The position numbers and the translations under genes were made by a program. From Ardenticatenaceae bacterium (GTDB taxonomy: Bacteria; Chloroflexota; Anaerolineae; Ardenticatenales; Ardenticatenaceae): a DNA stretch of 57,991 nt. The stretch covers positions 1-57,991 of the forward strand of contig WFWG01000228.1 of the NCBI GenBank assembly GCA_015491235.1, given 5' to 3'. Of the stretch, positions 1 to 57,991 are shown piece after piece. Under the pieces are notes generated by a model, which saw only the letters and a list, made by a program, of their open reading frames with translations, was not told the origin of the DNA and made no database searches. Position 1 is the first letter of the stretch. Every line of letters begins with the position of its first letter.

Positions 1-3000
1 GGATAATGGGCTTTGAGGAAGGCCGTCTGGCAGGTAATAACGGCGTAGTCGGCGGCATGGCTGTTATGCACCACAATGTCGTTGGCAATAAAATTGTGCA
101 ATTCCAGTACAGAAAGGTCGAACGTTTCTTTTTCTCCAACGTACTCGATGCGCTCTACGATATCCCAATAAATGTCGCTTTCAGCCAGGCGTTGTAATTC
201 TGGATCATCGAAATACTCAGCCAAACGTTGAATGGTGCGGCGTGCGAACCCTCTTTTTGTGGGATTATTTGTGGGATAGAATTCTCGTGGAGCTATGCCC
301 GTGGCTTCTCTTACATCTGCCCATGTCACGTTATTTTGCTCTTTTGCGGCTCGCACCAGTTCTTTCACTGGTAAAGGAACAACGTCAAGGACCATCGGTG
401 ATTTCGTCTCTTCCTGAATGAGCGCTTCGAGGGCTTCTTGTCGGGATGTGCTGAGGAAGTGAACGCCGATGTGCTGAGTAAAGCGCTGGAAGTTTTCCTG
501 TCCGGTAATAAAAAGTTGGTAGCCCATGCGGCCGTCTTTATAGGGAAATTTTACGGTGCGCAATCGGGAAACGATGCCAAAACGCAAGAGCAAGTGTTGC
601 ATCTGGCGAGCCATGCGTTCGGAGGCTGTCGCATAGAACAAACTACGCCCTTTTACATTGATATGCCCGTCCCCTTCCCACATACGGGCCAAAAGAAGCG
701 CAATCTGGTCATTGCGAAGTGCAAAAACGTCGTCGGGGATATGTTTGCTGTGCGCATTGCACCCCCACAGACCGAGTTCTTTGAGCCACGTCACAAGCTC
801 AGGCTCTTGGTTGCGCCGTATACGACGCGCGTACACACTCCATGTCCCCCGATGAGTAGCGACTGTGCATTTCACGTTGTCAAATTGTTCCGCCGCCCGA
901 ATGTAGTCATCCACCTGTTCTCGGTCTTGACTGTAAAAGGAAACCGAGTGAGGATGACACAGATTCCCTTCAGCCAGAAGATACCCCAGCACAATAAGGC
1001 GATGTTGCGGCCAAACATTTTTGCCTTCTATCGGTATCCGGCGAGGTGTCGCAATGCAATCACCGGGGCGTAGTTCGGCGAGCAGACGCCAGCCCTCGTA
1101 TGTATAGAAAGGATGGTTGGCAGTAGCCTCTATTTGACGCCCTGAGCGAGTTGTGAGCCGATAGACCGGTTGAATACCGTTTGCGTAGACACCTTCGATA
1201 TTCGCTGTGCGCAATTTGAGGCGCGTTGTATCGCAAGCCAGCGTTGACGTGAGCGTCGCTCGCCCTTCCACCAAATCCCGGATCTTCACCAATCGTCCAG
1301 TAGCGCCGTCTATGACTTCTACATCCCCCGGCAGACATTTGTTAAAGCCGTACCTCGCAAAAAACTCGATGTCGGCGTAAATGGCTCGTGCTGTCTCTTC
1401 GGGAATCCCGTTTTTGACACACCCTTCGACGAAAATCTGGCGGTGGCGTTCGATCTCCTTCTCCTTCTTCTTGGCCACAGCCCGGCGCATCAGGTCCGCA
1501 TCGCCGGGAGAGTAACCGGCCAGCTCAGAAGCGATTTGTATGATTTGCTCCTGGTAGACGCAGTTGTGGACAATGATGTTATTGCCCACGAAGGAATGGA
1601 GACCAGGCACCGTCAAGTCATAGACCGGCTCGATCCCCACTGGCTCGATAGCAACCACCTCCTGCCAGACCACGTTCAAACGGCGCTTGGTTTCAGGCAG
1701 TGGTACAGCATCGGCCACGGGCGCTACGACTCTCGCGCTAATACGTGGTGCGGAAGCGCGACGTGACGGCAAGAAGTGCTGGCGGTCAATGCCGTACTCA
1801 CGCATGAGTTGGCGGCGCGACATGTGAAGCCGGGCATCTACTTCTTGGATGAAGAGTTCACGGTCGAGTGTTGTATCAGCTTGGCCGTGGCACTCGACAT
1901 GACGTTTGGATGAAACCATGTGGGGTTGCAGCAACGCTGCCAACCGAACTGTGTCATAAACGGTGACCTGATAGGCAATGCGGGTTTTTCCGGACTCCGT
2001 TTCGTATGATGCCTCGTATATTGTGGCTTGAATGCCCAGTCGCAGGAGCAGGGTCTGTATATCTTCCGCCAGTTGACGAGAGACAGTTCGATAGTGGGCT
2101 AATTTAGCTCCCAAGTACCCATCACACTCCCAAAGTGAAGCCAGGAAGAAGGCCACATCTTCGTTCGGAAGCCGAAAGACAAAGGCCGGCACGAACTTCT
2201 CATGGCTGCGACATCCGCCCGGCCGTGTTCCCGGAGGCGCCTTGAGGCCCAATTCTCGCAGCCAAGTCAAAAGGGCGTTGGGGTGATGATAGTGGGCGGG
2301 GTCAGAGCCCTTGGAAGCACCAATGCGCAGGACTTCCCGTATTTGTTCTGTGTAATGTGGTTTGACGTTCTCAAACGCCGCCAAACAGCGCACATATTCC
2401 GCTTGTAAGGCCGTGTCCTTGGAAACGAAATCAACGGCTGCACCGCTCGCAAGGCTGCCGTCTCCCAGCAAGTAAGCTAACACGCGCAAACGCCTGCGGT
2501 CACACGAAAGTGGTTCCTCTGGCTCAACCAAAAAAGGAGGCGTGGCAATGTAATCGCCCACCCGAATTGCTTCGAGTGGCTTCCAGCCCTCCTCGGTCAA
2601 CACGCGGTGATCGGCGGTAATTTTGATGGAAGCGCCATTGCGCAGAACAACGCGATAGACCATCTTCTCCCCACTGGCGATCCAATGAGTAACAGGGGCT
2701 ACGCGCGTCTGCCACTCCTCGTCAATTCCCTGGATGAAAAACGTTTCGTGATCTCCTAGGTCGGCCAAGCGGCACCGTTCCCCTGTGCGCGTGTTGATAA
2801 CGAGCGTGTCGCCGCTCACACAGATACCGTAGGTTTCTTCGAGAATAGGTTTCAACCTGGGGTGATGATACTCGATTTCTTCTTCTCCGTGCATACGGCG
2901 AATATAATTCGGAATATACTCCATTGGGCCGGGGCGGTAGAGGGAGATGGCCGCGATGATGTGCTCAAATTGGGTGGGGCGCATGCCCCGCAGCACCTCC

Positions 3001-4883
3001 CGCATTCCGGCCGATTCCACCTGGAAGATGCCCGTGGTTTCGCCGCTGGCCAGCAAGTCGTAGAGCTTCTTCACCTGGGCGTCCTTCTCGGGATCGTCTG
3101 GACAGCGCTCGTAGGGGATGGTGTTCAGGTCGTAGCGCACGCCGTGCCGCTGCTCGATAAGCTCGCAAGCCTTGCGCATGATGGTCAGCGTGGCCAGCCC
3201 CAGGAAGTCCACCTTCAGCAGCCCGATGGACTCCAGAATTTCCATCGGCCACTGGGTGACCACGCCCAGGCCGGCCTCGTCCTGCTGGTCGCCCTTGGTG
3301 GGGCGGTGGAGCGGGCAATATTCCACCAGCGGCTTGTCGGAGATGATCACGCCGGCCGCGTGGGTGGAGGCGTGGCGGGCGATGCCCTCCAGCTTCATGG
3401 CCGTGTCCACCAGCTCGCGCACCTGGGGGTCCTTCTCGTAAAGCTGGGCGAACTCGGGATTCTCGAAGGCATCCTTCAGCTTCACCTTGGGACCGAAGGG
3501 GACCAGCTTGGCAATGCGATCAACCTGGCTGTTGGGGAGCCCCATGGCGCGGCCCACGTCTCGAATGGCAGCGCGCGCCCCCATCGTCCCGAAGGTGATG
3601 ATCTGGGCCACGTTCTCGGCCCCGTACTTCTCCACGGCGTAGGCCATCATCTGGGCGCGCTGGTCGTCGGGGAAGTCCATGTCAATGTCGGGCATACTGA
3701 CGCGCCCGGGGTTGAGGAAGCGCTCGAAAATCAGGTTGTACTTGAGCGGGTCCAAGTTGGTGATGCCCAAGCAGTAGGCCACGATGGAACCGGCGCCAGA
3801 GCCGCGCACGTTCCACCAGATCCCGTTCTCGCGAGCGTAGCGGCACAGGTCCCACACGATGAGGAAATACGTGTCGAACCCCATCTCGTGGATGACCTTG
3901 AGCTCGTACTCGAAGCGCTGGCGCACTTCGGCCGTCTCGGCCCGGTCGCCGTAGCGCGCTCGCAGCCCCCGTTCGGCCAGCTCCCGCAGGTAGGTTTGAG
4001 GCGTGTGTCCTTCGGGCACGTCGAAGTGGGGCAGGTGGTAGCCGTCGCTTTCCAGCGACACCTCGCACATCTCCGCCACCAGGACCGTGTTGCGGAGCGC
4101 TTCTGGCACCTCCCCGAAGAGCGCCAACATCTCCTGGTAACTCTTCAGGTAGTAGCTGTCGTCGCTCATGCGCATGCGGCCCTGGGTGTCAATCGTCTTG
4201 CCCGTCTGCACGCACAGAAGCACGTCGTGGGGCACGGCGTCATCGCGGCGCACGTAGTGCACGTCGTTGGTAGCCACGAGCTTCAAGTCGTACTTGCGAG
4301 CCCATTCGAGGAGCGTGCGGTTGACGCGGTGAAGCTGGGGAATGTTGTGGGACTGCAACTCGACGAAGAAGCGCTCCCGCCCGAAGACCTCCAGGTACCA
4401 CTCCAGGCGACGAGCGGCCTCTTCCGGCTGCTCCCGTTCCAGGAAGCGGGGCACCTCGGCCGCCAGACAGCCGGTGGTGACGATCAATCCCTCGCTGTAC
4501 TTCGCCAGGGTCTCCTTGTCCACGCGGGGCCGGTAGTAGTAGCCGCGCAACTGGGCCTCGCTGGCCAGCTTGAGCAGGTTCTTGTAACCTGTCTGGTTCA
4601 TGGCCAGCAGGAGCAGGTGGTAGCGCTCCTTGTCCAGCTCGGGGTGACGATCCTCCATGCGGTGTCGGGCCATGTACGACTCCATGCCGATGATGGGCTT
4701 GACGCCGGCACCCTTGGCCGCGCGGTAGAACTCGATCACGCCGTACATGGCCCCGTGGTCGGTGAGGGCAATGGCTGGCTGGCCCAACTCGGCCGCGCGC
4801 CCTACCAGGTCGGGAATGCGACTCAAGCCGTCGAGCAGGCTGTACTCCGAGTGGCAGTGGAGGTGGACGAAGGGTTCGGTCAC
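1..4883 (-). CDS. dnaE: DNA polymerase III alpha subunit, two inteins, 3' end outside window
   Basis: Catalytic subunit of the replicative polymerase. The minus-strand frame is open from a GTG at 4883 to the window edge. The start follows a GCGGAGGAAG ribosome site and gives VTEPFVHLHCHSEYSLLDG, the PHP-domain opening, then ALTDHGAMYG. The polymerase active-site motif PDIDMDFPDD lies near residues 395-405. The visible host protein comprises 687 residues before intein 1, 75 residues between the inteins and about 20 after intein 2 (SHAADYAVITCQTAFLKAHY). The finger, beta-binding and OB regions lie beyond base 1. Host junctions are YGI/CVYQEQ and YGFNK/SHAA, both in highly conserved polymerase sequence, so activity depends on splicing both inteins. 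The ccm-type genes lie 18 bp upstream on the same strand. Confidence 0.95.
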   Translation of the reverse strand, partial: MTEPFVHLHCHSEYSLLDGLSRIPDLVGRAAELGQPAIALTDHGAMYGVIEFYRAAKGAGVKPIIGMESYMARHRMEDRHPELDKERYHLLLLAMNQTGYKNLLKLASEAQLRGYYYRPRVDKETLAKYSEGLIVTTGCLAAEVPRFLEREQPEEAARRLEWYLEVFGRERFFVELQSHNIPQLHRVNRTLLEWARKYDLKLVATNDVHYVRRDDAVPHDVLLCVQTGKTIDTQGRMRMSDDSYYLKSYQEMLALFGEVPEALRNTVLVAEMCEVSLESDGYHLPHFDVPEGHTPQTYLRELAERGLRARYGDRAETAEVRQRFEYELKVIHEMGFDTYFLIVWDLCRYARENGIWWNVRGSGAGSIVAYCLGITNLDPLKYNLIFERFLNPGRVSMPDIDMDFPDDQRAQMMAYAVEKYGAENVAQIITFGTMGARAAIRDVGRAMGLPNSQVDRIAKLVPFGPKVKLKDAFENPEFAQLYEKDPQVRELVDTAMKLEGIARHASTHAAGVIISDKPLVEYCPLHRPTKGDQQDEAGLGVVTQWPMEILESIGLLKVDFLGLATLTIMRKACELIEQRHGVRYDLNTIPYERCPDDPEKDAQVKKLYDLLASGETTGIFQVESAGMREVLRGMRPTQFEHIIAAISLYRPGPMEYIPNYIRRMHGEEEIEYHHPRLKPILEETYGICVSGDTLVINTRTGERCRLADLGDHETFFIQGIDEEWQTRVAPVTHWIASGEKMVYRVVLRNGASIKITADHRVLTEEGWKPLEAIRVGDYIATPPFLVEPEEPLSCDRRRLRVLAYLLGDGSLASGAAVDFVSKDTALQAEYVRCLAAFENVKPHYTEQIREVLRIGASKGSDPAHYHHPNALLTWLRELGLKAPPGTRPGGCRSHEKFVPAFVFRLPNEDVAFFLASLWECDGYLGAKLAHYRTVSRQLAEDIQTLLLRLGIQATIYEASYETESGKTRIAYQVTVYDTVRLAALLQPHMVSSKRHVECHGQADTTLDRELFIQEVDARLHMSRRQLMREYGIDRQHFLPSRRASAPRISARVVAPVADAVPLPETKRRLNVVWQEVVAIEPVGIEPVYDLTVPGLHSFVGNNIIVHNCVYQEQIIQIASELAGYSPGDADLMRRAVAKKKEKEIERHRQIFVEGCVKNGIPEETARAIYADIEFFARYGFNKCLPGDVEVIDGATGRLVKIRDLVEGRATLTSTLACDTTRLKLRTANIEGVYANGIQPVYRLTTRSGRQIEATANHPFYTYEGWRLLAELRPGDCIATPRRIPIEGKNVWPQHRLIVLGYLLAEGNLCHPHSVSFYSQDREQVDDYIRAAEQFDNVKCTVATHRGTWSVYARRIRRNQEPELVTWLKELGLWGCNAHSKHIPDDVFALRNDQIALLLARMWEGDGHINVKGRSLFYATASERMARQMQHLLLRFGIVSRLRTVKFPYKDGRMGYQLFITGQENFQRFTQHIGVHFLSTSRQEALEALIQEETKSPMVLDVVPLPVKELVRAAKEQNNVTWADVREATGIAPREFYPTNNPTKRGFARRTIQRLAEYFDDPELQRLAESDIYWDIVERIEYVGEKETFDLSVLELHNFIANDIVVHNSHAADYAVITCQTAFLKAHY
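63..1337 (-). other. DnaE intein 2 (LAGLIDADG type), 425 aa
   Basis: Second self-splicing element in dnaE. It starts CLPGDVEVIDGATG (Cys1), carries block B EATANHPFYTYEGW, two LAGLIDADG-like helices (LGYLLAEGNL and LARMWEGDGHI), and ends HNFIANDIVVHN. The following host residue is Ser (SHAADYA). The insertion point, after YGFNK, is three residues downstream of the site used by the cyanobacterial split DnaE intein (family knowledge). The two inteins are clearly different in sequence, so they look like independent acquisitions rather than a recent duplication. Confidence 0.93.
1563..2822 (-). other. DnaE intein 1 (LAGLIDADG type), 420 aa
   Basis: Self-splicing element inside dnaE. It begins CVSGDTLVINTRTGERC (Cys1, block A), has block B KITADHRVLTEEGW with the TxxH pattern, and ends HSFVGNNIIVHN (blocks F/G, penultimate His and terminal Asn). 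The next host residue is Cys (CVYQEQ). Two LAGLIDADG-like helices are readable, LAYLLGDGSL and LASLWECDGYL, so a homing-endonuclease domain is present rather than a mini-intein. The reading frame is intact throughout. Removal restores the standard DnaE sequence EETYGICVYQEQ. Confidence 0.93.
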
Positions 4884-57193: not shown

Positions 57194-57540
57194 ACCCATC
57201 CGTCGTTGGTGTTCCGCTGAACGTCCAAACAAGCGTAAGTCCCGGTCCGCTTGACGGTTTCGCTTCTCTTCATCAAACGAGTTTGGCGATTGGGACACGG
57301 CCCTGCACACCTTCACCTTTGCCAACGCCGTCCACCAGGGCTTCAGACGTACACCCTGGCGCTGCGCCTCGCGCGGGGCGAACAGCTCGACGAAATGGGT
57401 GAATAAACGGGCAGAAAAGAAGAAAGTCCTGGGAAACCTTTGACAGGGCAGGTACTTGTCACTACCATTTCTTTGAGACAGCTCCTGTCTGGGAAGATGG
57501 CTGGCAGGCGGCGCCAGCACGTTTTGGAGGAGGGATACCC
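57194..57540. other. Intergenic region with possible decayed PKD-domain remnant
   Basis: No intact gene is seen. On the plus strand about 57270-57410 reads EFGDWDTALHTFTFAN, then after a frame change QTYTLALRLARG, which resembles a worn PKD repeat (FGDG...HTYA...YTVTLTV). The rest holds only the ribosome site GGAGGAGGG before 57541. Confidence 0.25.
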
Positions 57541-57991
57541 ATGGCCCGCAAGACGAAAGTCGCCAACGAAACGCTCGCTGAAATGCTCGACCGCATGACC
57601 CGCGTGGGCGACCTCTGGCGGCCGGAGGGCGAGCGCATCCGCTGTTTCGCCTGTGGCCACTACTGCCTGATCGGCGAGGGCCTGCGGGGCATTTGCAAGG
57701 TGCGCTTCAACAAGGGGGGCAAACTCTACGTGCCGTGGGGCTACGTGGCCGCCCTCCAGAATGACCCCATCGAGAAGAAGCCCTTCTTCCACGTCTTGCC
57801 GGGCCGCCAGACCCTCACCTTTGGCATGTTGGGATGCGATTACAAGTGCCCCTACTGTTTTCCAGAGGACACACCCGTGCTCACAGCCGACGGTGTTGTT
57901 CCCATTGGCGACATCTTCGAGCGTGGTAAGGACCGCCTACGCCTGCACGATGGGGAGATTACGTTCCCCGACATTCAGGTGTTCACCCGCC
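57541..57991 (+). CDS. amrS: AmmeMemoRadiSam-type radical SAM enzyme, interrupted by an intein; 3' end outside window
   Basis: The first 105 host residues are visible, followed by intein sequence. The N-terminal Cys motif RCFACGHYCLIGEGLRGICK near residues 34-53 and the segment PFFHVLPGRQTLTFGMLGCD are characteristic of the AmmeMemoRadiSam radical SAM family (formerly annotated as pyruvate-formate-lyase-activating-like). The iron-sulfur motif CX3CX2C begins CDYKCPY; the third Cys position is taken by Cys1 of an intein (57856). After splicing, the +1 Cys of the C-extein would complete the cluster. The function of this enzyme family is not settled. Confidence 0.87.
   Translation, partial: MARKTKVANETLAEMLDRMTRVGDLWRPEGERIRCFACGHYCLIGEGLRGICKVRFNKGGKLYVPWGYVAALQNDPIEKKPFFHVLPGRQTLTFGMLGCDYKCPYCFPEDTPVLTADGVVPIGDIFERGKDRLRLHDGEITFPDIQVFTR
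57856..57991 (+). other. N-terminal part of an intein in the radical SAM active site
   Basis: CFPEDTPVLTADGVVPIGDI matches intein block A (Cys1, then DTxVxTxxG), and the following 45 residues match no radical SAM sequence. The rest, including any endonuclease and the C-terminal HN, is beyond the window. Host interruption lies between CPY and the expected CQN. Confidence 0.85.

Follow-up and report, generated by a model that had tools for sequence, protein, structure and literature searches.

The window analysed here, a stretch of 57,991 nucleotides, is contig C228 of the genome in its full length of 57,991 bases. Its last 451 bases hold the start of a gene that is still open at the contig end (57,541–57,991, + strand), with a ribosome-binding-like ggaggaggg upstream at about 57,526–57,534. 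In the 150-residue fragment encoded there, residues 1–105 (57,541–57,855, +) form the N-extein of an AmmeMemoRadiSam radical SAM protein and end in LGCDYKCPY; TIGR04337 (AmmeMemoSam_rS) matches the fragment at residues 29–107 (E = 9.6e-18, 64.1 bits, profile positions 8–87). The first and second cluster cysteines, Cys98 (57,832–57,834, +) and Cys102 (57,844–57,846, +), are invariant in the precursor alignment, and Cys102 stands at position −3 to the intein, which is the redox-trap position of the Pab MoaA intein. Cys106 (57,856–57,858, +) is at once residue 1 of the intein, its predicted splicing nucleophile, and the third position of a CX3CX2C motif, so that the chain reads C98-DYK-C102-PY-C106; an alignment with nine complete relatives and 74 empty sites places it there. 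The first 45 residues of the intein (57,856–57,991, +; CFPEDTPVLTADG...) include block A and are cut by the contig end, which falls inside the intein. The match of TIGR01445 (intein_Nterm) to residues 106–136 (E = 1.8e-4) scored 22.4 bits, just under the cut-off of 24.5 bits, with only these 45 intein residues in the cut fragment.

A search of the same genome returned a second partial TIGR04337 match on contig C211 (locus L009), from base 70 (193.9 bits, profile positions 82–338). The start of C211 reads in frame PFEGYVYNLEVDDPDHTYLAGFFAVSN/CQNWLTSQALRD..., followed by the barrel and then a stop; the C-terminal junction of the intein is LAGFFAVSN/CQNWLTSQ, and the C-extein matches PF04055 with 63.1 bits. 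The first-pass annotation had proposed an intein at the third Cys of the radical SAM motif in an AmmeMemoRadiSam protein, a proposal borne out by TIGR04337, TIGR01445 and the same codon in nine relatives, and had expected HN followed by CQN beyond position 57,991. The CQN was found, whereas the expected HN is SN on C211, and both a C-terminal splice motif and a radical SAM barrel are present on that contig. Two features of a class 1 intein are likewise there, namely a position-1 Cys with block A (Cys106 with CFPEDTPVLTADG) and a C-terminal Asn followed by Cys (SN/CQN), and the intein_Cterm profile scored 13.7 bits, below its cut-off of 15.6 bits. The penultimate His of block G is absent, Ser taking its place in the C211 half of the intein. 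To our knowledge, this His is not universal in inteins, and the Ser represents variation and no disqualification. It is also Ser in six of the nine complete relatives, the other three (L017, L118 and L122) having His. The spliced product would read CDYKCPY+CQN, that is, CX3CX2C, and the identification of the +1 Cys as the true third Cys is supported. Of the intein-free relatives, 74 of 74 have CX3CX2CQN at the empty site.

The halves on C228 and C211 are most simply read as a single gene that the assembly interrupts within the intein. Searching the contigs of this genome with TIGR04337 revealed no second copy of either half, and no second AmmeMemoRadiSam radical SAM gene was found in the genome; Memo and AMMECR1 occur once each, on contigs C191 and C65, respectively, both over the cut-off. 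The middle of the intein is absent from the assembly, as searched with a profile of five relatives (the best other match was a UDP-glucose dehydrogenase intein), and the endonuclease, block B and cis-continuity of the present copy are therefore read from the relatives. That no contig in the assembly joins the halves could point to a natively split intein, with the gene divided between the halves and the products spliced in trans. This arrangement is highly improbable, given that the reading frame is still open where each contig breaks off within the intein, and that all nine complete relatives with an intein at this site are contiguous. A break that falls within a gene could also reflect a pseudogene or a chimeric assembly, which we consider more improbable still: the extein parts on C228 and C211 have open frames, share about 57%–62% identity with those of relatives and are intact at every motif residue, and they belong to the sole copy of the gene in a genome that is 96.6% complete.

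A scan of a genome collection with the 150-residue fragment yielded 80 loci, among them five complete precursors, 829–873 aa long when measured from stop to stop, and a further one (L025) cut at its contig end. Searches of 400 whole Chloroflexota genomes yielded three further inteins at the same site (L120, L121 and L122) and a mini-intein (L118, 755–2791); a fourth match (G055) appears to be the L015 genome. The intein lies at exactly the same codon in nine complete relatives, eight of these inteins being 439–449 aa long and one, the AmmeMemoRadiSam mini-intein of L118, only 185 aa long and without an endonuclease. Hosts of the same-site inteins belong to Chloroflexota, Omnitrophota and Acidobacteriota, and the complete intein-bearing relatives score 245–284 bits against TIGR04337 (cut-off 220). 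Within the sampled Chloroflexota genomes that have the host gene, the intein is carried by 6 of 151, including the present genome. Nine contiguous inteins at one codon, together with the uniform CX3CX2CQN of the empty sites, exclude chance as an explanation.

A second host of the same intein family is another radical SAM protein (L123, 1560–4256), again with the insertion at the third Cys (CNLRCVF/C...SN/CQNYEISQ). Its C-extein carries PF04055, and no curated NCBIfam radical SAM equivalog matched this host above the cut-off. With L123 included, 10 of 10 complete cases, and the present copy as well, have CX3CX2C in the precursor, with the Cys at −3 paired with Cys1. The C-terminus of the C211 intein had appeared closest to that of L123 (63% vs. 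22%–37% for the others), a result that was discarded because the comparison was ungapped. Among the viral, phage and plasmid carriers searched, similarity was at the level of the endonuclease only (22%–30% identity), and the next tier of intein matches in the phylum, where readable, lay in other proteins, none at radical SAM sites.

Phylogenetic analyses placed the intein and its host in strong conflict. The Chloroflexota hosts are grouped in the extein tree (100/99). The Chloroflexota inteins do not form one clade, and a tree constrained to unite them is 56 log units worse (p-AU = 5e-9). Some branches of the intein tree are weakly supported; the best-supported pair (99/97) consists of L017 from Omnitrophota and L122 from Chloroflexota, whereas for the exteins the same pairing is rejected (p-AU = 3e-4). 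Intein presence, mapped on a tree of 84 host sequences, shows at least eight changes. This conflict indicates that the intein moved horizontally, and movement between phyla is well supported; the occurrence in L123 suggests that the intein may also have moved between two radical SAM genes.

Five inteins of the relatives were scanned; LAGLIDADG_3 was detected in all of them (best E = 4e-14), and the Intein_splicing domain in four. Block B TxxH (T79 and H82, in mini-intein numbering) is invariant in the eight aligned relatives and belongs to the region of the present copy that is missing from the assembly. The 185-aa mini-intein, modelled with AlphaFold2 (pLDDT 74), matched the solved inteins PolB1, RadA and PolII (Foldseek E = 2e-7 to 2e-6). 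In an AlphaFold2 model of the whole precursor, pLDDT was below 50 at residues 94–101 and 549–567, that is, at the junctions, and the model is thus too uncertain for Cys–Cys distances.

We therefore interpret the element as a class 1 intein that splices in cis, in all likelihood bears a LAGLIDADG domain like its close relatives, and sits directly before the third 4Fe-4S Cys codon of the single AmmeMemoRadiSam radical SAM gene of an Anaerolineae-class Chloroflexota; the enzyme would be active only after excision, and the intein would persist mainly as a homing element. We assign this reading a probability of roughly 0.93, a figure that does not extend to any redox step. Since the relatives carry the components of a class 1 intein, canonical splicing with C+1 as the third cluster ligand is expected. 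The residues concerned are seen in the sequence, and the steps follow canonical class 1 chemistry: Cys1 would attack the Tyr–Cys1 bond, the C+1 thiol would then take over the N-extein, and the Asn would cyclise so that the intein leaves. C+1 would thereby become the third cluster ligand, and only from then on would the enzyme be active. Under oxidising conditions, a disulfide between C-3 and Cys1 could keep the precursor unspliced, as in P. abyssi MoaA. The insertion point (TGY xxx TAY/TGY CAR AAY) is surrounded by codons under the strongest constraint in the gene, which should make it a good homing target, and homing to this highly conserved target would be the main means by which the intein persists.

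One element of the first-pass annotation goes beyond what the sequence shows, namely that the 4Fe-4S cluster cannot form until splicing supplies the +1 Cys. This does not follow, because Cys1 occupies the third-Cys position and the unspliced chain thus keeps C-DYK-C-PY-C, a CX3CX2C in its own right. What must wait for splicing is enzyme function. The precursor motif could possibly hold a non-productive cluster, a metal or a C-3/Cys1 disulfide, or its thiols could be free; a cluster, metal or disulfide at this site would itself block the first splicing step.

More probable than not is that the intein is nothing but a selfish homing element and that the pairing of C-3 with Cys1 is a by-product of the site with no regulatory role. 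Its spread is patchy (among 151 Chloroflexota genomes that have the host gene, 6 carry it) and the intein and extein trees disagree, as expected for a homing parasite at a conserved site; moreover, the endonuclease domain is kept in every relative scanned (5/5), and the insertion hits the gene where its codons are most conserved. An intein at this site has a Cys at −3 by necessity, so that the presence of this Cys is no evidence of selection for regulation. Against the selfish reading, inteins of one close family sit at the third Cys of radical SAM enzymes in two host proteins, and the radical SAM proteins Tes, Rv2578c and MoaA also hold inteins there, a pattern that would at least fit a benefit. 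A more tentative reading, to which we give a minority chance, is that the C-3/Cys1 pair, or the set of C1, C2 and Cys1, acts as a working switch, a disulfide, Fe-S cluster or metal stopping splicing until conditions become reducing or the metal is lost. Radical SAM clusters are oxygen-labile, which suits such a switch, as do the CX3CX2C in each of the ten complete precursors (L123 among them) and the −3 geometry shared with P. abyssi MoaA, whose disulfide blocks the first splicing step. However, homing alone explains the distribution, and the precursor model has low confidence at the junctions (pLDDT below 50). More doubtful is the proposal that an intein lineage has specialised on the radical SAM third Cys, across phyla and at least two hosts, and that the Cys1-completed CX3CX2C in the precursor binds a cluster, metal or disulfide and so delays splicing until a proper cluster can be built.

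The closest known system is the P. abyssi MoaA intein, in which a disulfide between Cys-3 and Cys1 prevents splicing in an oxidising environment, so that an oxygen-labile enzyme is spared (reviews PMC3922620 and PMC10663303, on Callahan et al. 2011). It shares with the present intein a radical SAM host, the −3 Cys and Cys1 as catalytic residue, and judging from the motif, its −3 Cys would be the second cluster Cys. In contrast, its host is another enzyme and archaeal, and it is in MoaA that redox control was tested. By analogy, a redox switch in the AmmeMemoRadiSam intein, which the first-pass annotation had also put forward, is plausible, the same geometry having already been published for P. 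abyssi MoaA. Two intein-containing protein families offer further parallels. NF045703 (intein-containing tetraether lipid synthase Tes), which represents another radical SAM family, also has a radical SAM host with intein Cys1 at the third-Cys position; its profile aligns across both junctions, with Cys1 at profile position 156 in four proteins. Position 76 of NF038136 (intein-containing Rv2578c-family), again from another radical SAM family and with a weak match here (E = 0.0037), corresponds both to Cys106 and to Cys1 of the first DnaE intein in the window, so that the intein of the Rv2578c family begins at the corresponding Cys of the radical SAM motif. The alignment of both profiles with Cys1 at the same Cys indicates that radical SAM third-Cys inteins are a recurrent kind. 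No papers on the Rv2578c or Tes inteins were found in the literature searched; the AmmeMemoRadiSam intein is a further case of this kind, and no description of it was found there either.

The inteins described here form a natural bacterial series, with and without an endonuclease and in two radical SAM hosts, in which splicing supplies a cofactor ligand. As the series includes a compact mini-intein of 185 aa, that of L118, which is a good candidate for biochemistry, the choice between redox or metal sensing and mere residence at a conserved site becomes testable beyond the single archaeal example of MoaA. For the metal trap, the alternative to a disulfide, no test was found in the literature searched.

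Other inteins were encountered in this genome and phylum. At the opposite end of the window, the gene for DNA polymerase III alpha (DnaE; 3–4883, − strand), which runs past the contig start, contains two inteins, one with Cys1 at residue 688 (ETYGI/CVSGDT, ending HN/CVYQEQ) and the other with Cys1 at residue 1183 (YGFNK/CLPGDV, ending HN/SHAADYA). Intein-like frames of 1206 and 1189 aa were also present on contigs C298 and C377, respectively, suggesting that the genome is rich in inteins. On contig C56 of the same genome, UDP-glucose dehydrogenase (L095, 469–2871) has an intein at the catalytic Cys region (GGS/CFAGD, ending AHN/CFPKDV), and in another Chloroflexota genome, IMP dehydrogenase (L136, 946–3933, −) has one at the catalytic Cys (GSI/CFEGST, ending HN/CTTRVV). 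These last two resemble the AmmeMemoRadiSam intein in being inserted at an active-site Cys and are among the nearest other Chloroflexota inteins by intein profile; in contrast, their hosts are not Fe-S proteins, and they score 75–131 bits, compared with 370–750 bits for the full-length radical SAM set.
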